This document shows, one piece after another, positions 45,593 through 56,506 of a stretch of 64,000 nucleotides of DNA. Each line of letters begins with the position of its first letter. The stretch's first letter is position 1. The DNA comes from [Streptosporangium] indianense (lineage in GTDB: Bacteria > Actinomycetota > Actinomycetes > Streptomycetales > Streptomycetaceae). The notes under the pieces are model-generated. The model searched no databases and was not told where the DNA came from. It worked only from the letters and a program-made list of their open reading frames with translations. The DNA lies in assembly GCF_021474405.1 (NCBI RefSeq), contig NZ_JAKEIO010000010.1:1-64000 (forward strand), given 5' to 3'. The translations under genes were made by a program, and so were the position numbers.

Positions 45593-48298
45593 ATGAAGAA
45601 AGCCGCGAAGGCCGCGAAGGCCGCGAAGGCCGCGAAGGCCGCGATGGCCGAGATGGCCGAGATGGCGGAGAAGGCGGAGAAGGCAGTGAACGAGGGGGAG
45701 CATCCCGAGGTGCGCGCCGACGCGGCGCCCGGGCCGGCCGACGCGGCCGACGGCGTCTGGTCCGGCGACTGGGTCGCCGAGCGGCTCGGCGTCGAGCTCG
45801 CCGGCGACGACGCGCTGACCGGCCTGCTGGGGCTGGCGCTGCGCCGCAACCCCAAGCGGGCCCATCTGCTCGTGTCGAACGTGCTGGGCAAGCACGTCCC
45901 GCAGTCGCCGTCCGTCGTGTACGGCTACGGGTGGGAGCTCGGGCGCCGGGTGCGTGAGCTGCTGGGCGACGAGGACGCCCGCAGGGCCGTCGTCCTCGGC
46001 TACGCGGAGACCGCGACCGGCCTCGGCCACTGTGTCGCCGACGGGCTGGGCCTCGCCCCCTACCTGCACTCCACCCGCCGCCCGGTCGCCGGTGTCGACG
46101 CGGCCGGCGGTTTCGAGGAGTCCCACTCCCACGCGACCTCGCACCTGCTGCTGCCCGAGGACCCGGCCCTGCTCGCCGGTGACGGGCCGCTGGTCCTGGT
46201 CGACGACGAGTTCTCCACGGGCAACACGGTGCTGAACACCGTCCGTGACCTTCACGGACGGTATCCGCGGCGGCGGTACGTCGTGGTGGCGCTGGTGGAC
46301 ATGCGGTCGCCCGTCGACGCGGGGCGCCTCGCGGAATTCGCCGAGGAGATCGGAGCCCGGGTCGACCTGGTCACGGCGGCTTCGGGGACCGTGCGGCTGC
46401 CCGAGGGGGTGCTGGAGAAGGGGCAGGAGCTGGTGGGGCGGTACGAGGCGGAAAGTGCGGCGGAGGGTTCGTCGGCGGGTGCGGCGACGTCGGGGCCGTT
46501 CGCGCAGTTCCCCGCGCCCCCGAACAGCGGCGTTGCCGAGACGTCCCTTTCAGGGGCGCGGCAAACTGCGCGAACGGCCCCCACCGGCCCGCACCCGCAC
46601 GACAACGGCACCGCCCCCCACGCCACCCGCATCGACCTGCACTGGCCCGCCGGCCTTCCCGACGGGGGCCGACACGGCTTCACCCCCGCCCATCGGGAAC
46701 GCCTGGAGGCCGCCCTCCCCGCGATGGCCCGCCGCCTGGCGCAGGCGCTGCCCCACGGCGCCCGCCGCGTCCACATCCTCGGCTTCGAGGAGCTGATGTA
46801 CGCGCCGCTGAGGCTCGCCCGCGAGCTGGAGCGCGACACCGGCCTCGAGGTCCGCTACTCCACCACCACCCGCTCACCCGTCCTGGCCGTCGACGACCCC
46901 GGCTACGCCATACGCACCCGCCTCGCCTTCCCCGCCCACGACGACCCCGCCGACGGCCCCGGCGAGCGGTACGCCTACAACGTCGCGGGCGCCGGATTCG
47001 ACGCCGTCGTCGCCGTCGTCGACTCGGCCGCGGACACGCCCGCCCTGCACGCGCCCGACGGTCTGCTGGCCCGCCTCGCCGCGCACACGCCGCGCGTCCT
47101 CCTCGCCGTCGTACCGTCGTACGCCCCCGAAAGGCCCTCCATGCTGCCCGAGCCCCTCCGCGGCCCCGACTTCTCCTCGTACGCGCCCGAGGAGGTCGGC
47201 TGGCTGCTCCAGGACCTCTCGGACGTGACCCTGGAGGCGCCGACCGAGGAGCGCGAGGAGGCGATCCAGAGCGGCGGCGCGCACTACGCGGAGTCGCTGC
47301 CCGTGGAGTACCAGCCCAGCGAGCAGTACCAGGCGCTGTTCCACGCCGCGCTGGACGACTCGGCGGCCCGCATCGCCCGGGCGGTCGGTGTCGTCACCGA
47401 GACCGTCCTCGCGGAGCGCTCCCCGCGTCCCGTCCTGGTCTCCCTGGCCCGCGCCGGCACCCCCGTCGGCATCCTGATGCGCCGCTGGGCCCAGCACCGG
47501 CACGGCCTCGACCTGCCGCACTACGCCGTGTCGATCGTCCGCGGCCGGGGCATCGACGCCAACGCCCTGCGCTGGCTCGCCGAGCACCACGACCCCCGGG
47601 ACGTCGTCTTCGTCGACGGCTGGACCGGCAAGGGCGCCATCACCCGCGAACTCGCCCAGGCCCTGGAGGAGTTCGAGAAGTCCGACGGCATCGGCGGCTT
47701 CAGCGCCGAGATCGCGGTGCTGGCCGATCCGGGCTCCTGCGTGCGCACCTACGGCACCCGCGAGGACTTCCTCATCCCCTCCGCCTGCCTCAACTCCACC
47801 GTCTCCGGCCTGATCTCGCGGACCGTGCTGCGCGCGGACCTGGTCGGCCCGCACGACTTCCACGGCGCGAAGTTCTACCGCGAACTCGCCGCCACGGACG
47901 TCTCGGTGGCCTTCCTGGACGCCGTCGCCGCCCGCTTCCCGGAGGTCGCCGACGCGGCCTGCGCGCAGGCCAAGGAACTGCTGGCGACCGACCGCTCGCC
48001 CACCTGGGAGGGCTGGGCCGCCGTCGAGCGCATCAGCGAGGAGTACGGCATCCACGACGTGAACCTCGTCAAGCCCGGCGTCGGCGAGACCACCCGGGTC
48101 CTGCTGCGCCGCGTGCCCTGGAAGGTCCTGGCACGAGCCGGGGCGGGCAGCGACCTCGACCACGTGCGCCTGCTGGCCGAGCAGCGCGGCGTGCCCGTCG
48201 AGGAGGTCGACCGGCTTCCCTACACCTGCGTCGGGTTGATCCACCCGAAGTACACTCGCGGCGCGACCGGCGCCGACGGCAAGGCGGTGACCCTCTGA
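45593..48298 (+). CDS. Three-part Ter protein: PRTase_2 - TRSP - PRTase_1 (StiP-like)
   Basis: 901 residues, ATG at 45593. Order seen: an Ala/Lys repeat head (about 3-33); a phosphoribosyltransferase (about 50-290) with PRPP loop VDDEFSTGNT at 203-212; a linker (about 291-345) built on a REP-like DNA element; a TRSP domain (about 350-520) with its name motif in YSTTTRSPV; and a second phosphoribosyltransferase-like domain (about 545-895) with VDGWTGKGAI at 674-683 and the C-terminal YTCVGLIHPKY, the StiP/PRTase_1 type. In many Ter operons these are two genes; here they form one chain. Predicted to build a nucleoside-like compound. Overlaps the HAD gene stop-to-start (TGATG). Confidence 0.88.
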   Translation: MKKAAKAAKAAKAAKAAMAEMAEMAEKAEKAVNEGEHPEVRADAAPGPADAADGVWSGDWVAERLGVELAGDDALTGLLGLALRRNPKRAHLLVSNVLGKHVPQSPSVVYGYGWELGRRVRELLGDEDARRAVVLGYAETATGLGHCVADGLGLAPYLHSTRRPVAGVDAAGGFEESHSHATSHLLLPEDPALLAGDGPLVLVDDEFSTGNTVLNTVRDLHGRYPRRRYVVVALVDMRSPVDAGRLAEFAEEIGARVDLVTAASGTVRLPEGVLEKGQELVGRYEAESAAEGSSAGAATSGPFAQFPAPPNSGVAETSLSGARQTARTAPTGPHPHDNGTAPHATRIDLHWPAGLPDGGRHGFTPAHRERLEAALPAMARRLAQALPHGARRVHILGFEELMYAPLRLARELERDTGLEVRYSTTTRSPVLAVDDPGYAIRTRLAFPAHDDPADGPGERYAYNVAGAGFDAVVAVVDSAADTPALHAPDGLLARLAAHTPRVLLAVVPSYAPERPSMLPEPLRGPDFSSYAPEEVGWLLQDLSDVTLEAPTEEREEAIQSGGAHYAESLPVEYQPSEQYQALFHAALDDSAARIARAVGVVTETVLAERSPRPVLVSLARAGTPVGILMRRWAQHRHGLDLPHYAVSIVRGRGIDANALRWLAEHHDPRDVVFVDGWTGKGAITRELAQALEEFEKSDGIGGFSAEIAVLADPGSCVRTYGTREDFLIPSACLNSTVSGLISRTVLRADLVGPHDFHGAKFYRELAATDVSVAFLDAVAARFPEVADAACAQAKELLATDRSPTWEGWAAVERISEEYGIHDVNLVKPGVGETTRVLLRRVPWKVLARAGAGSDLDHVRLLAEQRGVPVEEVDRLPYTCVGLIHPKYTRGATGADGKAVTL
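45602..45646 (+). repeat. 9-bp tandem repeat encoding Ala-Ala-Lys
   Basis: GCCGCGAAG occurs four times in a row from 45602 to 45637, followed by GCCGCGATG and two GCCGAGATG-like units. It encodes a helical basic head of the Ter fusion protein and is prone to length change. Confidence 0.9.
46492..46581. repeat. REP-like long inverted repeat inside the Ter fusion gene
   Basis: Arms 46492-46520 and 46553-46581 are 29 nt each with only two mismatches, separated by 32 nt. The core GCGCAGTTCCCCGCGCCCC equals the complement of the element at 20616. It stays in frame and encodes the Pro/Ala/Ser/Thr-rich linker at residues about 300-330 between two domains. Confidence 0.85.
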
Positions 48299-49107
48299 TG
48301 CCCGCGCTCGTCGCAAGCGACCTCGACCGCACCCTCATCTACTCCGCCGCGGCCCTGGCCCTCACCATGCCGGACGCGCGGGCGCCCCGGCTGCTGTGCG
48401 TGGAGGTGCACGAGAGCAAGCCGCTGTCCTACATGACGGAGACGGCGGCCCGGCTCCTCACCGAGCTGGGCGACGCGGCCGTGTTCGTGCCGACGACCAC
48501 ACGTACGCGCAAGCAGTACCTGCGCATCAACCTGCCGGGCCCCGCGCCAAGGTACGCGATCTGCGCGAACGGCGGCCACCTCCTGGTGGACGGCGTCTCC
48601 GACCCCGACTGGCACGCGCAGGTCACCGCCCGGCTGGCCGACCAGTGCGCGCCCCTGGCCGAGGTGCAGGAGCATCTGCTGCGGACCGCCGACCCGGTCT
48701 GGGTGCGCAAGCACCGGGTCGCCGACGACCTCTTCGCCTACCTCGTCGTCGAGCGTGAACTGCTGCACGAGGACTGGGTGAAGGAACTCGCGGCGTGGGC
48801 GGAGAACCTCGGCTGGACCGTGTCCCTCCAGGGCCGCAAGATCTACGCCGTGCCGAAGCCGCTCACCAAGAGCGCGGCGATGCGGGAGGTCGCCCGGCGG
48901 ACCGGGGCGGATCTCACCCTCGCCGCGGGCGACTCCCTGCTCGATACCGACCTGCTCCTCGCGGCGGACCGGGGCTGGCGGCCCGGCCACGGGGAGCTGG
49001 CCGACACCGGCTTCACGGCTCCCTCGATCAGGGTGCTTCCCGAGCGGGGCGTTCTCGCCGGGGAGCGGATCCTGCGGGAGTTTCTGGAGGCAGTGCGGGG
49101 CGCCTGA
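48298..49107 (+). CDS. HAD-superfamily phosphatase of the Ter module
   Basis: 269 residues; ATG at 48298 overlaps the upstream stop (TGATG). Catalytic motif I is SDLDRTLIY with Asp8 and Asp10, motif II VFVPTTTRT, and motif IV AAGDSLLDTDLLL carries the metal Asp pair. A C2-type cap similar to phosphomannomutase/sucrose-phosphatase HADs is likely between. In Ter operons this HAD is thought to dephosphorylate a product of the phosphoribosyltransferases. Its last 80 nt overlap the 3' end of the convergent DedA gene. Confidence 0.9.
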   Translation: MPALVASDLDRTLIYSAAALALTMPDARAPRLLCVEVHESKPLSYMTETAARLLTELGDAAVFVPTTTRTRKQYLRINLPGPAPRYAICANGGHLLVDGVSDPDWHAQVTARLADQCAPLAEVQEHLLRTADPVWVRKHRVADDLFAYLVVERELLHEDWVKELAAWAENLGWTVSLQGRKIYAVPKPLTKSAAMREVARRTGADLTLAAGDSLLDTDLLLAADRGWRPGHGELADTGFTAPSIRVLPERGVLAGERILREFLEAVRGA

Positions 49108-49762
49108 GGACTCGGGTGTCCTGGTCGTCGTGCGGGTGCGGCGCCGCCGTGGCCGATCGCGCAGTTCCCCGCGCCCCTTCGGGGCGCTTCTCCTTGGGGC
49201 GCCGCAGGAGCCGCACCCCGACGAAGACCACCACCGCCAGCGCCGCCACGGCCAGGACCACCTTGGAGTAGGCGGAGACGATGTCCGAGACCTGGTGCCA
49301 GTTGGCGCCGAGGAAGTAGCCGGAGAGGACGAACGCCGTGTTCCAGATCGCGCTGCCCAGGGTCGTCAGGCCCAGGAACACCGGCAGGCGCATGCGTTCG
49401 ACGCCCGCGGGCACGGAGATCAGGCTGCGGAAGATCGGGATCATCCGGCCGAAGAACACGGCCTTGGTGCCGTGCTTCAGGAACCAGGCCTCGGTCTTCT
49501 CGATGTCCGAGACCTTCACCAGCGGCAGCCGGGCCGCGATCGCCACCGTCCGGTCACGGCCGAGCAGCGCGCCGACGCCGTACAGCGCGAGCGCGCCGAT
49601 CACCGAGCCGGCCGTCGTCCACAGCAGCACGGCGAGCAGGCTCATCCGGCCGCTGCTCGCGGCGAACCCGGCGAGCGGCAGGATCACCTCGCTGGGCAGC
49701 GGCGGGAACAGGTTCTCCAGGGCGATGGCGAGACCGGCACCCGGCGCGCCCAGCGCGTCCAT
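49028..49762 (-). CDS. DedA family membrane protein
   Basis: 244 residues from ATG at 49762; related proteins begin a few residues earlier (QWVNDLMDAL is encoded just upstream but without a usual start codon). DedA motifs: ENLFPPLPSEVILPLAGF, FFGRMIPIFRSLISVPAG and LGSAIWNTAFVLSGYFLG. About five membrane segments. Members flip polyprenyl-phosphate or phospholipid carriers. The last 60 residues are basic, Pro-rich and run through a REP-like repeat and 80 nt into the antisense of the HAD gene, so the tail is probably an acquired extension. Confidence 0.85.
   Translation of the reverse strand: MDALGAPGAGLAIALENLFPPLPSEVILPLAGFAASSGRMSLLAVLLWTTAGSVIGALALYGVGALLGRDRTVAIAARLPLVKVSDIEKTEAWFLKHGTKAVFFGRMIPIFRSLISVPAGVERMRLPVFLGLTTLGSAIWNTAFVLSGYFLGANWHQVSDIVSAYSKVVLAVAALAVVVFVGVRLLRRPKEKRPEGARGTARSATAAPHPHDDQDTRVLRRPALPPETPAGSAPRRERPAREAP
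49155..49187. repeat. REP-like hairpin in the DedA tail
   Basis: GATCGCGCAGTTCCCCGCG then GCGCCCC-TTC-GGGGCGC (49171-49187). The core GCGCAGTTCCCCGCGCCCC is identical to that inside the Ter fusion gene at 46502-46520. It probably acts as terminator for both convergent genes. Confidence 0.75.
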
Positions 49763-49867
49763 CAGGTCGTTGACCCACTGCGGCCCGGCCGTCCGCTGCG
49801 ATGGCTGTCATGCCGCCACGCTAGGGAACCGAAGCTGAAGGGTTCCTGAGGAAACGGGACAGCCGCG

Positions 49868-50074
49868 TCAGCCGCAGCAGCCGCCTCCGCAGCAGCCGCC
49901 GCCCGAGCGTGGTGCGGGGGCCGGGGCGGAGCCGCCGACCGCGACGGTGGAGAGGAGCTTCACGGTGTCGTCGTGGCCTGACGGGCAGGCCGCCGGCTCG
50001 GAGGACTCGGCCATCGGACGGCTCAGTTCGAAGGTGTCGCCGCAGGTCCGGCAGCGGTACTCGTAGCGAGGCAT
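49868..50074 (-). CDS. FmdB-type zinc-ribbon protein
   Basis: 68 residues, ATG at 50074. N-terminal zinc ribbon YEYRCRTCGDTFE with a second pair less clear (CPSGH), typical of FmdB/YcfA regulators. The C-terminus GGGCCGGGCCG is Gly/Cys-rich, adding four cysteines that may bind metal. FmdB in methylotrophs is a putative regulator of formamidase, but in Streptomyces the role is unknown. Divergent from the PBP gene by 127 nt. Confidence 0.9.
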   Translation of the reverse strand: MPRYEYRCRTCGDTFELSRPMAESSEPAACPSGHDDTVKLLSTVAVGGSAPAPAPRSGGGCCGGGCCG

Positions 50075-50201
50075 GAGGACAGGTTAATCCGCGCCCACGT
50101 AAATGCCGCCTTTCGCGAATCTTTTGGCCGCCGTTGCCGTACCGGTGTGGAGGACCTGTAAAAGCCGCTGATAACTTTCGAACGCGCGAGGAGCCGAACA
50201 G

Positions 50202-52481
50202 GTGGGGGATGACGAGGGATCGCTGCCGTCGACCACTGCAGCCAAGCCCTTCCGCGCGAGCACCACCGTAAGCGGGGAGGGAGACACAGCCGTGTCGAAG
50301 GCTGGGCGGGAACCGGACGAGACCATGCAGTTGAAGGTCCCCGACTCCGTGGCCGCGGACGAGACCATGATGTTGCGCGTCGTCGGGGCGACCGGGAACG
50401 ACAAGGCGGACACGGCGTCCGGCGCGGCGAAGGACGGGAGCGCACCGGACAGATCGCGCCGGCGGCGCAGGGCCCCGCGGCCCTCCCCCCTGAGCCGTCT
50501 CACCGCCACCGCCCCCGGGCTGCCCCGGCTCGCCGCCCGCCTCGCGGCCGAGGCCCGCCGCCTTCGGCCCCGCTACCCGCACGCCGACCGCACCGGCTGG
50601 CGCCGCTGGGCGCCCTCCTGGCGGCAATGGCTCGGTGCCGCGGCGACGCTCACCGGCCTGATCGTCGTCCTCCTGGGCTCCGCCTACGCCGCCACCGACA
50701 TCCCGGAGAACCTCAACTCCTACGCGACCCAGCAGGACAACGTCTACTTCTGGTCCGACGGGACGCCCATGGCCCGCACCGGCTGGGTACGGCGGCAGGC
50801 GATGCCGCTGAAGGACATACCCGAGGACGTCCGCGGGGCGGTGCTGGCGGCGGAGAACGCGAGCTTCTACAGCGACCCCGGCATATCCTTCAGCGGCCTC
50901 ACCCGGGCCCTGTGGCGCACGCTGGGCCAGGGGGAGACCCAGGGCGGCTCCACCATCACCCAGCAGTACGTCAAGAACGTCTACCTCAACCAGGACCGCT
51001 CGGTCGGCCGCAAGTTCACCGAGGCGATGCTCGCCCTCAAGCTCGACAACGAGATGAGCAAGGACGACATTCTGGAGGGCTACCTCAACACCAGCTGGTT
51101 CGGCCGCGGCACCTACGGCATCCAGCGCGCCGCCCAGGCCTACTACGGCAAGGACGTCGGCGAACTCGATGCAGGCGAGGCCGCCTTCCTCGCCTCCCTC
51201 CTCAAGGGCGCCTCGCTCTACGACCCGTCCGTGAGCAAGGCCAACCACGACCGGGCGGTGGAGCGCTGGTCCTGGATCCTCGACCGCATGGTCGACACCG
51301 GCGCGCTGTCGAAGTCGGAGCGCGCCCGGTACAAGGACTTCCCCGAGCCGCTGAAGCGGGCGCCAGGTTACGACACCGGCAAGCAGAGCGACTACCTGGT
51401 GGAACTGGCCGCCCAGTACGCCAAGAAGGCGGCGCACCTGACGGCCAGGGAGTTCGACCTCGGTGGCTACCAGATCTACACGACCTTCGACCGCAAGCAG
51501 GAGACCGCGCTCACCGACGCCGTGAACACGGCCCGCAAGAAGGCGCGCAAGGACCATCCGGGCAAGGCGAAGGCCCTGCACTTCGGGGCCTCCTCGGTGG
51601 CCGCCGACGGGCGCATCCTCGCCGTCCACGGCGGCCCCGACCACCGCGAGCAGGGCTACAACGAGTCGAACGCGACCACCGTCCCCGCCGGTTCGGCCTT
51701 CCAGCCGTTCGTCTACGCCGCCGCCCTGGAGAACGGCGTGCACACGACCCGGGACGGCGCCGCGACCGAGGTCACCCCGCAGACGCTCTACGACGGGGAC
51801 GACGGCATCGCCGTGCGGACACCCGAGGGCCCCTACTGGGACCGCGGCGGCAAGCAGGTCACCTCCCGCAACGACGGCGGGAAGTCCTACGGTCGGATCG
51901 GCCTCGGCCGGGCGCTCGCCCTGTCGGTGAACACGCCGTTCATGCAGCTCGGCATGGACACCGGCCTGGACACGGTGCGGGCGACCGCCCAGCGGGCCGG
52001 CCTGCTCCCCTCCAGCTTCGGCCCGCAGGTGCCCGCGATGTCCCTGGGCAGTGCCACGCCCAGCGCGATCCGCATGGCGAGCGGGTACGCCACGTTCGCC
52101 GCCGCCGGCAAGCACGTCGAGCCGTACTCGGTGGCCCGGATCACCCGCAACGGCTCCGCGGTCGAGCTGACCAGGCCCGCGTCCCGCCGCGCGGTGAAGG
52201 CGTCCGTCGCCGAGGCGGTCCAGTCCGCACTCCGGGACGCCTTCCGCGCCGCCCGCCCGGGCGCGGCCGCGACCGTCCCGGTGGCCGGGAAGGCAGGCAC
52301 CACGCAGGACGACACCGCCGCCTGGTACGTCGGCACCGCCAACTCCGTGTCGACGGCCGTGGTGGCCTACCGCATCGACCTCACCAAGAGCCTCGAACCA
52401 CTGCCCCTGGACGGGATCGCGGGGACTCCCGGCGACAGCGTCCCCTACCGCATATGGTCCGGTGCCCGAGGCATCGGCTGA
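50202..52481 (+). CDS. Class A penicillin-binding protein with altered transpeptidase motif
   Basis: 759 residues, GTG at 50202 behind GAGGAG. A 130-residue cytoplasmic basic N-terminus holds two DETM motifs (ETMQLKV, ETMMLRV). One membrane helix lies about 143-163. The glycosyltransferase-51 domain (about 180-370) has AENASFYSDPG with Glu218, GGSTITQQ (248-255) and KFTEAMLALKL. The transpeptidase domain (about 420-740) has SVN (575-577) and KAGTT (697-701), but the SxxK motif reads SAFQ (Ser498-Gln501): the catalytic Lys is missing. So polymerase activity is likely, crosslinking doubtful. DNA at 51690-51702 confirms codons TCG GCC TTC CAG. Confidence 0.9.
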   Translation: MGDDEGSLPSTTAAKPFRASTTVSGEGDTAVSKAGREPDETMQLKVPDSVAADETMMLRVVGATGNDKADTASGAAKDGSAPDRSRRRRRAPRPSPLSRLTATAPGLPRLAARLAAEARRLRPRYPHADRTGWRRWAPSWRQWLGAAATLTGLIVVLLGSAYAATDIPENLNSYATQQDNVYFWSDGTPMARTGWVRRQAMPLKDIPEDVRGAVLAAENASFYSDPGISFSGLTRALWRTLGQGETQGGSTITQQYVKNVYLNQDRSVGRKFTEAMLALKLDNEMSKDDILEGYLNTSWFGRGTYGIQRAAQAYYGKDVGELDAGEAAFLASLLKGASLYDPSVSKANHDRAVERWSWILDRMVDTGALSKSERARYKDFPEPLKRAPGYDTGKQSDYLVELAAQYAKKAAHLTAREFDLGGYQIYTTFDRKQETALTDAVNTARKKARKDHPGKAKALHFGASSVAADGRILAVHGGPDHREQGYNESNATTVPAGSAFQPFVYAAALENGVHTTRDGAATEVTPQTLYDGDDGIAVRTPEGPYWDRGGKQVTSRNDGGKSYGRIGLGRALALSVNTPFMQLGMDTGLDTVRATAQRAGLLPSSFGPQVPAMSLGSATPSAIRMASGYATFAAAGKHVEPYSVARITRNGSAVELTRPASRRAVKASVAEAVQSALRDAFRAARPGAAATVPVAGKAGTTQDDTAAWYVGTANSVSTAVVAYRIDLTKSLEPLPLDGIAGTPGDSVPYRIWSGARGIG

Positions 52482-52524: not shown

Positions 52525-53802
52525 ATGAAACAGCCGTCCGGCCGCCGCCGTCGATCCCCCGCACCCCGCCGCGCCACGCCCCCGCGGGTGCTCACACTGG
52601 CGGCCCTCCTGGTCGTGGCGTCCCTGGTCGGCGGCTACATGGTGCTGACCCGCTCGGACTCCACCACCCCGACCGCCTCGTCCGGCGCCCGCAAGGACAC
52701 CCCCGCGAAGCGGGACGAGGAGCCCCGGTGGGACGGCAGGACGAAGGTCCTCGGGGACGGCTCGACGTCGTACACCGGCCCGCAGAAAGGGCAGTTGAAG
52801 CCGGTACCGCTCAAGCCGGGTGAGAAGCCGCCCCAGTTCGTGGTCTTCTCCTGGGACGGCGCGCTGCAGGGCGACGACGGGCTCTTCTCGCACTACCAGG
52901 AGCTGGCGGCGGAATACGACGCCCACATGACCTTCTTCCTCACCGGCATCTACCTGCTGCCCAAGGCCAAGAAGGAGCTCTACGCGCCGCCTCAGCACGC
53001 CAAGGGCTCGGCGGCCATCAGCTTCGCCACCGACGAGCACATCCGCACCACGCTGGAGCAGCTCGGCAAGGCGTGGCAGGGCGGGAACGAGATCGGCACC
53101 CACTTCAACGGCCACTTCTGCGGCAAGAAGGGCGGCGGCGACTGGAGCGTCGAGGAGTGGAAGAGCGAGATCGACCAGTTCTACGCCTTCACCGAGAAGT
53201 GGAAGACCAACACCGGCTTCACGGACCTCGCCCCCCTGCCGTTCGACGTCAGGAAGGAGGTCACGGGCGGCCGCGCGCCCTGCCTCGAGGGCCAGAAGAA
53301 CCTGCTGACGGCCGCCAAGGACTACAAGTGGCGCTACGACGCCAGCTCCGCGGGCGACTTCCAGATATGGCCCGGCAAGAAGGACGGCATCTGGGACTTC
53401 CCGCTGCAGATGCTCCCGTACGAGGGCGGCAAGTACCAGGGCCTCTCGATGGACTTCAACTTCCTCTACAACCAGTCCGAGGGGGAGACCGAGGGCGACC
53501 CGGCGAAGTACCCCGAGTGGGAGGAGCAGACCGTCGCCTCCTACATGTCCGGCTTCAACCGCGTGTACTACGGCAGCCGGGCCCCGCTGTTCATCGGCAA
53601 CCACTTCGAGGACTGGAACGGCGGCATCTACATGCGGGCCGTCGACCGGGTCGTCAAGGACATCTGCACCAAGAAGGGCGTCAAGTGCGTGTCCTTCCGG
53701 GAACTGGCCGACTGGCTCGACGTGCAGAAGCCCGCGACCTTGCAGCGGCTGCGCGGTCTGGACCCGGCGCAGTCGCCCGACTGGTCGACAGTCGTGAAGT
53801 GA
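52525..53802 (+). CDS. Polysaccharide deacetylase-like (NodB fold) secreted/membrane-anchored protein
   Basis: 425 residues, ATG at 52525. Basic N-terminus then one membrane anchor (about 22-43, VLTLAALLVVASLVGGYMVL) and a Thr/Ser linker, so the enzyme part is outside. The NodB-type motif 1 reads VVFSWDGAL with the Asp, and motif 2 is EIGTHFNGHFCG with two His. The remainder has extra loops (KKGGGDWSVEEW) and cysteines, unlike canonical chitooligosaccharide deacetylases, so the substrate may be peptidoglycan or teichoic polymers. The start lies 43 nt after the PBP stop, same strand, suggesting cell-wall co-regulation. Confidence 0.85.
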   Translation: MKQPSGRRRRSPAPRRATPPRVLTLAALLVVASLVGGYMVLTRSDSTTPTASSGARKDTPAKRDEEPRWDGRTKVLGDGSTSYTGPQKGQLKPVPLKPGEKPPQFVVFSWDGALQGDDGLFSHYQELAAEYDAHMTFFLTGIYLLPKAKKELYAPPQHAKGSAAISFATDEHIRTTLEQLGKAWQGGNEIGTHFNGHFCGKKGGGDWSVEEWKSEIDQFYAFTEKWKTNTGFTDLAPLPFDVRKEVTGGRAPCLEGQKNLLTAAKDYKWRYDASSAGDFQIWPGKKDGIWDFPLQMLPYEGGKYQGLSMDFNFLYNQSEGETEGDPAKYPEWEEQTVASYMSGFNRVYYGSRAPLFIGNHFEDWNGGIYMRAVDRVVKDICTKKGVKCVSFRELADWLDVQKPATLQRLRGLDPAQSPDWSTVVK

Positions 53803-53908
53803 TCACGCCAAAGTAACGGCGGCAGCACCCTTCACAGAAGCCCCACACTCCATGCGAAGATCTCGTACCCCGGCACCTCTTTGGCCGGGGCAAGAGGGGA
53901 AAACACCA

Positions 53909-55081
53909 GTGAAATCAAGGAAATTGCGCGGTACGCGCCGCCGCGTCACGATAGTCGGGGCCGCGGCGACCTCGGTCGTCGCCGGAGTCGCCCTGCTGCC
54001 CAACTGGAGCGCGGGCGCGACCGTCGTCGACGATCCCACGGTGGACGCGCGGACCAAGGCCACCTTCCAGCGGCTGGCGGACGCCGTCTTCACCGACCGC
54101 ACCAACGCCCTGGTCGCCGGCGGACGGGCCGACGCCGGAAAGCCGCTGACCGACGGCTTCTCCGGCGACGTCGCCCTGTCCTCCGGTACGGCCCGCACCG
54201 AGGACGCCACCCTGTCCGAGCTCGGGCAGCGGCGGCAGCAGCTGGCGAAGGCCGGCGAGACGTACGGCAAGGCCAGCACCACCGTCACGCTGGACGCGAC
54301 AAGGGTGACGGGCCGCACGGCCAAGGCGGAGGTCACCGAGACCACGACCCTGACCTACGCCGAAACCCGCGGGAACGCCCCGAAGACCACCGGATTCCAG
54401 GCCCGGCACGAGCTGACCTTCAAGGCCGACCGGCACGGCGACTGGCGGCTGACCGGCATCCGCGACACCGACCAGGGCGGTCTCGCGGTGAACACGCTGT
54501 CCAAGCCGGCCCCCGTCAAGCCGGCCCCCGCCCCGGACAACACCACCCCGGACGCCCCGCGCGCGGCGATCACCCGCAACCCGGCCGCCGCCCCCAAGAC
54601 CGCCACGACGTACGACTACAAGGCCATGGCGGCCTATGCCGAGAAGTACTGGAACGTCTACAACAAGGACTACCCGGACTTCAACGGCCACGGCGCCGGC
54701 GGCGACTGCACCAACTTCGTCAGCCAGGCCCTGAAGGCGGGCGGCTGGAAGCACGCCCCCGGCTACGTGTACGACTACACCAAGTGGTTCGGCAACGCCG
54801 ACATCCAGTCGGACTCCTTCGTCGGCGTCAACGAATGGTCCTGGTTCGCCCAGAACTCCAAGCGGACCACGCCGCTCGCCAACGTCTTCCAGCTCGAGGT
54901 CGGTGACGTCCTCCAGATGGACTTCGACCGGGACGGGTCCAAGGACCACACGATGATCGTCACGTACAAGAGCGGCGGTGTGCCGTACGTGACCTACCAC
55001 TCGAACAACACCCTCCGCAGGTCGGTGGCGAGCCTCGTCGCGTCGTACCCGAACGCGTACTACTACGCCTACCGCACCTGA
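53909..55081 (+). CDS. Secreted amidase-domain protein (Amidase_6)
   Basis: 390 residues from GTG at 53909 with AGGGGA upstream. A basic start (KSRKLRGTRRR) and hydrophobic stretch VGAAATSVVAGVALLPNW form a Sec-type signal. A middle region (about 40-215) is Thr/Ala-rich. The C-terminal domain (about 240-390) is of the Amidase_6 type: GDCTNFVSQALKAGG with the catalytic Cys267, DHTMIVTY with His and YVTYHSNNTLRRSV. It resembles papain/NlpC-like lysins and may hydrolyse peptide bridges of peptidoglycan. Third consecutive cell-envelope gene after the PBP and deacetylase genes. Confidence 0.85.
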   Translation: MKSRKLRGTRRRVTIVGAAATSVVAGVALLPNWSAGATVVDDPTVDARTKATFQRLADAVFTDRTNALVAGGRADAGKPLTDGFSGDVALSSGTARTEDATLSELGQRRQQLAKAGETYGKASTTVTLDATRVTGRTAKAEVTETTTLTYAETRGNAPKTTGFQARHELTFKADRHGDWRLTGIRDTDQGGLAVNTLSKPAPVKPAPAPDNTTPDAPRAAITRNPAAAPKTATTYDYKAMAAYAEKYWNVYNKDYPDFNGHGAGGDCTNFVSQALKAGGWKHAPGYVYDYTKWFGNADIQSDSFVGVNEWSWFAQNSKRTTPLANVFQLEVGDVLQMDFDRDGSKDHTMIVTYKSGGVPYVTYHSNNTLRRSVASLVASYPNAYYYAYRT

Positions 55082-55099: not shown

Positions 55100-56506
55100 T
55101 CAGTGTCCGGCCCCTCTCTCCTCGCGGATCGCGGAGACCACACCGGCCACCGCCCGGCGGACCGCTTCCGTCTCCGTGAGGAAGTGCCAGTAGTCGGGGT
55201 GGCGGCCCTCGAGGCCGGCGACGGCACGGTCCAGACGGGCCACGGCGTCGTCCAGGGGGCGGGCGTGCCGCGGGTCGGGGGTGTTGCGGCCGGCCATGGC
55301 GAGGCGCTGGGCGTCCCGGATGGCGAAGCGCGTGCGGTCGATCTCCTGCTGGGGGTCCTTCTGCACGGCGTTCAGACGGTGCAGCCGGTCGCCCGCGGCC
55401 GATACGGCCTCGTCGGTGCTGTTCAGCAGGGCCCGTACGGTCGACAGCAGGGCCGTCGCGTCGGCCCAGCGCTGTGCGCCGCGGGCGGTCTGGGCCTCGG
55501 CCAGTTTCGCCTCGGCCCGGCGGACGTTCTCGGCGGCGGAGTCCGGGACGTGCTGCAGGTCCTGCCAGCAGGCCGCGGTGAAGCGGCGGCGCAGCTCGCT
55601 CAGGGTCGGTTCGACCTGCTCGGAGCGGGTGGTGAGGGCCTGGGCGCGGGTGCGCAGGGAGACCAGGCGGTGGTCGATCTCCGCGGCGCGGTCCGGCAGC
55701 CGCTCGGCCTCCACACGGACCGCCTCCGCCTCACGGCTGACCCGCTCGGCCCGCTCCAGGGTCTGCGGGACGCCGTGCTGTCCGGCGCCCTGGTTCAGCC
55801 TGGTCAGCTCCGGGGACAGGGCGGCGAGCCGGGCGGCGAGGTCGTCGGCCCGCAGCCCGGACGCGCGGACGGAATCGAGGGCGTCGGAGGCGGCGAGCAG
55901 GGCCTGGCGGGCCCGTTCGACCGCGGGGGCGAGGCGGGCCAGCTGCGTCTCGGCCTTGCCGAGCAGGGGCCCGAGGCCGTCGGTGAACCGGTCCAGCTCC
56001 TGCTTGACCCGGCCGAGTTCCTCCCTGGCGGCGGTCAGCTCGGCTCGGGCGCGGGAGGCGGCGGAGGCCTCCAGGTCGTCGCGGTCGAGGTCGTGGGCGT
56101 CGACGGCGTCGATGTAGCGGTGGCTGACCTCGTCGATGCGACGGCCGAGGGCGTCGAAGTCGGCGACGGCGCGACGGGCGGCGGGCGAGTCGTCGACGGC
56201 GGTGATCGTCTCGATCGAGATGCGCAGGTCGCGCTGGGCGGTGTCGAGCTCGTAGAACGCGGCCGCGGCGGCGTCCTTCGCCGCCTGGGCCTCGGCCCGC
56301 TGGTTCTCGGCGCGGCCGCCGAACCAGCGCCGGGTGCCCCCGCCCGCGAAGGCGGCCGGCAGCGCCAGCGCGGCCACCAGCGGCAACGCCATCAGGGTCA
56401 GCGCGTCCCGGAGCGGACGGCCCGGGGTGCGGGAGGAGGCGGGGCGGCCCGGGCGGTGTGCACGCGGCACCGACGGCGAGTCCGGCTGTCCTGGTGTCGC
56501 CGTCAC
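55100..56506 (-). CDS. Large coiled-coil protein with one membrane segment
   Basis: 468 residues, GTG start at 56506. N-terminal 30 residues are Pro/Arg-rich, followed by a single hydrophobic segment (LMALPLVAALALPAAFAGGG, about 37-56). Beyond that the protein is almost entirely charged helix with heptad-like Leu/Ala patterning (ELTAAREELGRVKQELDRF; RRVDEVSH-type segments), as in coiled coils. No catalytic motif is recognised. It might be a structural or septum/cell-wall scaffold. It converges with the Amidase_6 gene (19 nt between stops). Confidence 0.8.
   Translation of the reverse strand: MTATPGQPDSPSVPRAHRPGRPASSRTPGRPLRDALTLMALPLVAALALPAAFAGGGTRRWFGGRAENQRAEAQAAKDAAAAAFYELDTAQRDLRISIETITAVDDSPAARRAVADFDALGRRIDEVSHRYIDAVDAHDLDRDDLEASAASRARAELTAAREELGRVKQELDRFTDGLGPLLGKAETQLARLAPAVERARQALLAASDALDSVRASGLRADDLAARLAALSPELTRLNQGAGQHGVPQTLERAERVSREAEAVRVEAERLPDRAAEIDHRLVSLRTRAQALTTRSEQVEPTLSELRRRFTAACWQDLQHVPDSAAENVRRAEAKLAEAQTARGAQRWADATALLSTVRALLNSTDEAVSAAGDRLHRLNAVQKDPQQEIDRTRFAIRDAQRLAMAGRNTPDPRHARPLDDAVARLDRAVAGLEGRHPDYWHFLTETEAVRRAVAGVVSAIREERGAGH

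Follow-up and report, generated by a model that had tools for sequence, protein, structure and literature searches.

The window (the whole stretch of 64,000 nucleotides analysed) carries, at 50202..52481 on the forward strand, a gene encoding a class A penicillin-binding protein (PBP) of 759 aa with a predicted pseudo-transpeptidase. The GTG start is uncertain; residue 1 is the GTG at 50202, and the translation of the open reading frame contains ...VPAGSAFQPFVYAA.... No sigma-E type promoter was found in 49701-50300 by a simple pattern scan, which is a weak test. The features given below are on the forward strand unless otherwise stated. The protein comprises a cytoplasmic tail in which a DETMxL repeat occurs twice (residues 39-44 and 53-58; 50316..50375; motif counts), a single transmembrane segment (residues 143-161; 50628..50684; hydropathy scan), a GT51 glycosyltransferase (GT) domain (50760..51290; PF00912, 195.7 bits, 5.8e-58) and a transpeptidase-fold (TP) domain (residues 451-720; 51552..52361). 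The latter was delimited by a partial PF00905 match and by its model, whose predicted TP part superposes on the TP domain of Mycobacterium tuberculosis PonA1 (Z 37.2; rmsd 2.4 over 325-327 residues). Model confidence: TP part, pLDDT mostly above 80; GT part, poor (about 33-57 over much of it).

The TP domain includes four short elements. SAFQ (Ser498-Ala-Phe-Gln501; 51693..51704) occupies the SxxK site; Ser498 is TCG (51693-51695) and Gln501 is CAG (51702-51704), and a profile alignment places SAFx onto the STIK of A. baumannii PBP1a. TPEGPYWDR (residues 540-548; 51819..51845) is specific to the family according to a 122-row alignment. SVN (SxN motif; residues 575-577; 51924..51932) and KAG (KTG motif, Thr replaced by Ala; residues 697-699; 52290..52298) were read from the sequence and from the family alignment. 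The initial annotation had reported SAFQ instead of SxxK, SVN and KAG otherwise in place and an intact GT51 domain, and all of this was found again; the span that it gave, 51690-51702, contains the right site but is three bases off, as it starts one codon early at Gly497. It had also envisaged a nearby alternative SxxK. The TP domain contains no such motif; the protein has just two, at residues 332 and 343, both outside this domain.

The PF00905 match begins only at profile position 69, so the SxxK region is left uncovered by the Pfam match. PF00905 detects 12 transpeptidase domains in the genome that contains the window, and that of the window PBP is the weakest. The four other GT51 proteins of this genome all have STFK or STWK. 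Among the features that define a class A PBP, GT51 with its glutamates and the TP fold are present in the window protein and SxxK is absent.

The next gene (52525..53802) encodes a membrane-anchored polysaccharide-deacetylase-like protein (CE4/NodB fold), hereafter the partner. Its ATG, a conserved start, is located at 52525 and follows the PBP stop by 44 bases; the reading frame is open from 52462. A secreted Amidase_6 protein (PF12671, 8.3e-32) is encoded at 53852..55081, as third gene in the main Streptomyces group only.

Extent of the lysine loss and state of the two domains

Relatives were collected by a contig scan, and the best 80 of 306 were kept as the nearest ones; all are from Streptomyces or an unclassified actinobacterium. 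None of these 80 orthologues has Lys at the SxxK position, which rules out a sequencing slip or an isolated mutation. The family alignment (122 rows, 120 distinct) includes these 80, two sets of further loci (5 and 4), 20 Streptomyces regions, 12 regions from other genera of the bacterial family and the window. By group, 91 rows belong to the main Streptomyces group (group 1), 19 to a second group (group 2) and 12 to other genera.

Lys is found at position 501 in 0/122 family rows (120 distinct) versus 24/24 related class A PBPs. The residue is Leu (53), Gln (19), Thr (11), Met (5) or Glu (3) among the 91 rows of the main group, and Thr, Ala or Met in the second group and in the other genera. 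The initial annotation had asked whether Gln is conserved among orthologues: Gln is not fixed (L, Q, T, A, M, E), and the constant feature is that Lys is never found. A new common base at this position is ruled out by these six different residues. The entropy of position 501 is 2.09 bits, versus a mean of 0.41 for its flanks (residues 492-508 without 501; 122 rows), and Gly497, Pro502, Val504, Tyr505 and Ala506 are the same in every row.

A maximum-likelihood tree of 79 rows contains a branch, with SH-aLRT support of 100, that has all 55 Lys-less rows on the same side; a single ancient loss is thus the simplest history. The loss predates at least four genera. The pseudo-transpeptidase PBP was detected in 18/61 genomes of a family search (6/10 Streptomyces and 12/51 others, the latter under three further genus labels), membership being read at the gap that separates 751 from 627 bits. 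Of 296 genomes drawn across the class, 13 have a member, all of them Streptomyces, and none of the 268 non-Streptomyces genomes has one. Contig 1 of one genome (G337) carries two family members, one per Streptomyces group by score.

The remaining motif residues of the TP domain drift. Ser498 is kept in 93/122 family rows and replaced by Thr in 29; the Ser of SxN is kept in 116/122; the Lys of KTG is present in 115/122 and absent from 7, and the middle Thr is found in only 23/122. The most eroded TP sites are those of loci L135, L137-L139 and L178, where Thr, Val, Leu or Arg stands in for the KTG Lys. TPEGPYWDR is near-invariant (residues 540-543, 545 and 546 have zero entropy; 122 rows). No frame break was found over the TP domain in the 80 nearest orthologues or in the 42 further rows. 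On the GT side, the catalytic-region glutamates Glu218 and Glu274, as well as Arg270 and Lys271, are present in 122/122 rows. Damage to the GT domain as well was considered and rejected: EN in place of the ED motif is also found in 21/24 canonical relatives, hence is not special.

Selection was compared with that on a canonical paralogue from the same 5 genomes (10 pairs; window genome left out). TP dN/dS is 0.466 in the pseudo-transpeptidase family versus 0.383 in the paralogue, and GT dN/dS is 0.236 versus 0.372, absolute values being rough (simple pairwise method, strong GC bias, non-independent pairs). The TP domain is modestly relaxed yet still constrained, and the GT domain is under tighter constraint. 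A first same-genome control, which had given equal TP constraint (0.472 pseudo versus 0.487 canonical), was set aside because the canonical protein of the window genome is not orthologous according to the tree.

Given that Lys is lost clade-wide, that no substitute is fixed and that other motif residues drift, the TP domain is very likely catalytically dead, as far as can be judged from its sequence. Ser498 and the SxN Ser are kept more often than a purely vestigial site would predict, which leaves room for a degree of substrate binding or for unusual catalysis.

The DETMxL motif is found at least once in the tail of 76/91 group-1 members and in 0/19 group-2, 0/12 other-genus and 0/24 canonical proteins. 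The repeats resemble, in our view, phospho-Thr/FHA-type sites and are perhaps kinase targets.

The deacetylase-like partner gene

Asp132 (52855), His214 (53101) and His218 (53113) of the partner (residues numbered from 52462) correspond to an Asp and an HxxxH that are found in 110/110 members. Motif 1 of canonical CE4 enzymes is TFDDG; it is SWDG, with one Asp instead of two, in 110/110 members of the partner family and in 6/6 same-genome paralogues read. The partner encoded in the window has no Pfam match at a cut-off of 10, and PF01522 matches the family weakly (24/34 members; best E 0.0044). The fold was assigned from the model: Foldseek retrieved 5znt (E 9.1e-9), and fold matches include an insect chitin deacetylase (5z34, Z 20.2, 246 residues), H. 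pylori HP0310 (3qbu, Z 17.6) and B. subtilis PdaC (6h8l, Z 15.1). The partner resembles CE4 peptidoglycan and chitin deacetylases in its fold and in its Asp + HxxxH, but differs from them in SWDG for TFDDG and in its weak PF01522 match. CE4-fold proteins devoid of deacetylase activity are reported (BA0330/BA0331; PMC4505593).

The partner gene directly follows the PBP gene in 77/80 nearest loci; in the other 3, the contigs end first. In a survey of 121 Streptomyces genomes, the PBP was found in 51 and the partner subfamily in the identical 51. Thresholds were E <=1e-200 for the PBP and >=645 bits for the partner (lowest 645.2, next 532.2), the 640-bit line for the partner having been drawn after the gap was seen; the SxxK position was read in 26 of the 51 Streptomyces members, namely the window, the set of 5 further loci and the 20 regions. 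The two genes are neighbours in all 50 Streptomyces genomes that have both on one contig, the partner being downstream on the same strand (33), downstream on the opposite strand (16) or upstream on the opposite strand (1). In the 51st genome, the pair is split over two contigs and the PBP gene is at a contig end. The PBP gene also adjoins the partner in 12/12 regions from other genera (8 convergent, 4 upstream divergent). The link between the two genes thus outlasts several rearrangements, which argues for a joint function and not only a shared history; an association by history alone is weakened by the same observation. The initial annotation had dealt with a single protein; the trait is that of a whole family, paired with a polysaccharide-deacetylase-like gene.

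The Amidase_6 gene adjoins the pair in 77/80 nearest loci, the other 3 contigs ending just past the PBP gene. An Amidase_6 relative is found near the pair in only 8/19 second-group regions and 0/12 other-genus regions, so it is not part of the core.

Proposed function and rival explanations

The SxxK Lys activates the motif Ser in PBPs. Without it, Ser498 would not be activated and no acyl-enzyme would form; since this Lys is missing, the window PBP would be incapable of transpeptidation and would escape acylation by beta-lactams. The motif Ser is described as the nucleophile of PBPs (PMC4810414). The preferred reading, considered probable, is a GT51 glycan polymerase with a pseudo-transpeptidase, paired with a CE4-like partner and insensitive to beta-lactams. 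The membrane-bound GT51 protein would polymerise lipid II in the manner of a monofunctional glycosyltransferase, with no cross-linking of its own. The glycosyltransferase-only character proposed in the initial annotation is consistent with a TP domain that is very likely dead and with invariant GT glutamates; for GT activity, as for the beta-lactam insensitivity and the regulatory role that it also put forward, we infer from established PBP chemistry. The TP fold would be retained as a module without catalytic activity, whose role could be to guide the strand or the stem peptide, to add stability or to serve in docking. It is a guess, in keeping with the retained fold and the invariant TPEGPYW, that the partner docks onto this module or that the strand is guided by it. 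The nascent strand would be modified by the membrane-anchored, CE4-fold deacetylase-like partner, possibly within a physical complex, and cross-linking, if any, would be carried out by other PBPs or by L,D-transpeptidases. A more elaborate version is possible but doubtful: a two-protein synthase in which the former TP domain serves both to dock and to guide a dedicated deacetylase, the nascent glycan being deacetylated during its synthesis and left to non-PBP cross-linking, which would give a wall layer tolerant to beta-lactams and lysozyme in part of the genus.

Cryptic or altered catalysis is an unlikely alternative, in which the TP domain would acylate, hydrolyse a peptide or bind D-Ala-D-Ala by means of another base (e.g. 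the KxG Lys or a water). It would account for the retention of Ser498, SxN and the KxG Lys in most members and for the almost invariant TPEGPYW beside the site, but residue 501 can be hydrophobic, polar, acidic or small and hence offers no shared new base. In addition, Ser498 has become Thr in 29/122 rows, the KTG Lys is gone from 7/122, and the TP domain has no family-specific conserved Lys; the sole family-specific conserved His is residue 638. Improbable to a similar degree is a sensor or regulator, whose TP domain would bind D-Ala-D-Ala stems or beta-lactams non-covalently and would gate the GT domain or signal wall damage, the tail being a kinase/FHA target. The conservation of a TP fold that is very likely catalytically broken and the DETMxL repeats of 76/91 group-1 tails point in this direction, but this tail motif is found in 0/31 members of the other two groups and is therefore not a family trait.

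A decaying relic, i.e. a drifting TP half in a gene that hitch-hikes as a whole in a conserved neighbourhood, is very unlikely. The TP domain does evolve faster than the GT domain here (dN/dS 0.466 versus 0.236), whereas the canonical control has equal values for the two domains (0.383 versus 0.372). Against decay, the TP frame is unbroken in the 80 orthologues and the 42 further rows, dN/dS is well below 1, the GT domain is tighter than in the control, the partner association outlasts rearrangement, and the single loss is older than at least four genera.

Known systems and flanking genes

Canonical class A PBPs (E. coli PBP1b, M. tuberculosis PonA1, and paralogue L002 of the window genome) share with the family GT51 and a penicillin-binding fold, a single transmembrane anchor and, for most members, SxN and K-G motifs. 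The family differs from them by the missing SxxK Lys, the eroded KTG, TPEGPYWDR and the obligate deacetylase-like partner gene. By analogy with monofunctional GT51 enzymes (S. aureus MGT/SgtB, E. coli MtgA; named in PMC4810414), polymerisation without cross-linking and insensitivity to beta-lactams would be expected. MGT and MtgA consist of GT51 alone (about 200-270 aa), whereas the window protein has 759 aa with a complete folded TP-like domain; the MtgA model TIGR02070 gives 107.5 bits, below its cut-off of 182.65.

Loss of SxxK in Streptomyces class A PBPs is already in print. Ogawara (2016; PMC6273383) lists 13/100 class A PBPs of 24 Streptomyces species without SxxK, SxN and KTG being mostly kept, and states that they 'can function as PBPs'. 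Some listed species are also in the family set, as matched by species name and not by locus tag: S. viridochromogenes DSM 40736 (L013), S. afghaniensis (L008), S. iakyrus (L009) and S. caeruleatus (L018). The section of that article devoted to these proteins differs from the present analysis in being silent on clade structure, on the drift of the other motifs and on a partner gene. In the open-access literature, six of its locus tags were traced to PMC6273383 alone, and no published account of the family, the motif erosion or the partner gene was found, a search that is weak for subscription journals. The clade, the erosion and the partner gene thus appear to be new. According to PMC6767563, the class A PBPs of S. 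coelicolor number only three.

The family would be an ancient and widespread natural split of polymerisation from cross-linking within a class A PBP, hence a clean system for the non-catalytic role of the TP domain. A dedicated wall modification is suggested by the obligate deacetylase-like partner, which could also account, in a testable manner, for some of the intrinsic tolerance of Streptomyces to beta-lactams. Caution is needed with annotation pipelines, which label these Lys-less proteins as transpeptidases and drug targets.

Other genes surround the pair. Two open reading frames (901 aa and 269 aa; 45593-49107) are conserved upstream of the PBP gene in most main-group loci. By their look, we take the first to be of phosphoribosyltransferase type and the second to be a HAD-type hydrolase, and they recall a tellurite-resistance-type cluster; the 269-aa product has no Pfam or NCBIfam match. 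A DedA/VTT protein with weak matches to UptA-type undecaprenyl-phosphate transporters is encoded at 49028-49762 (reverse strand); its gene is divergent from the PBP gene in the nearest relatives and missing from most other loci. The gene at 55100-56506 (reverse strand) codes for a coiled-coil protein that matches EzrA below threshold; in most loci of the main group, this gene faces that of the Amidase_6 protein.
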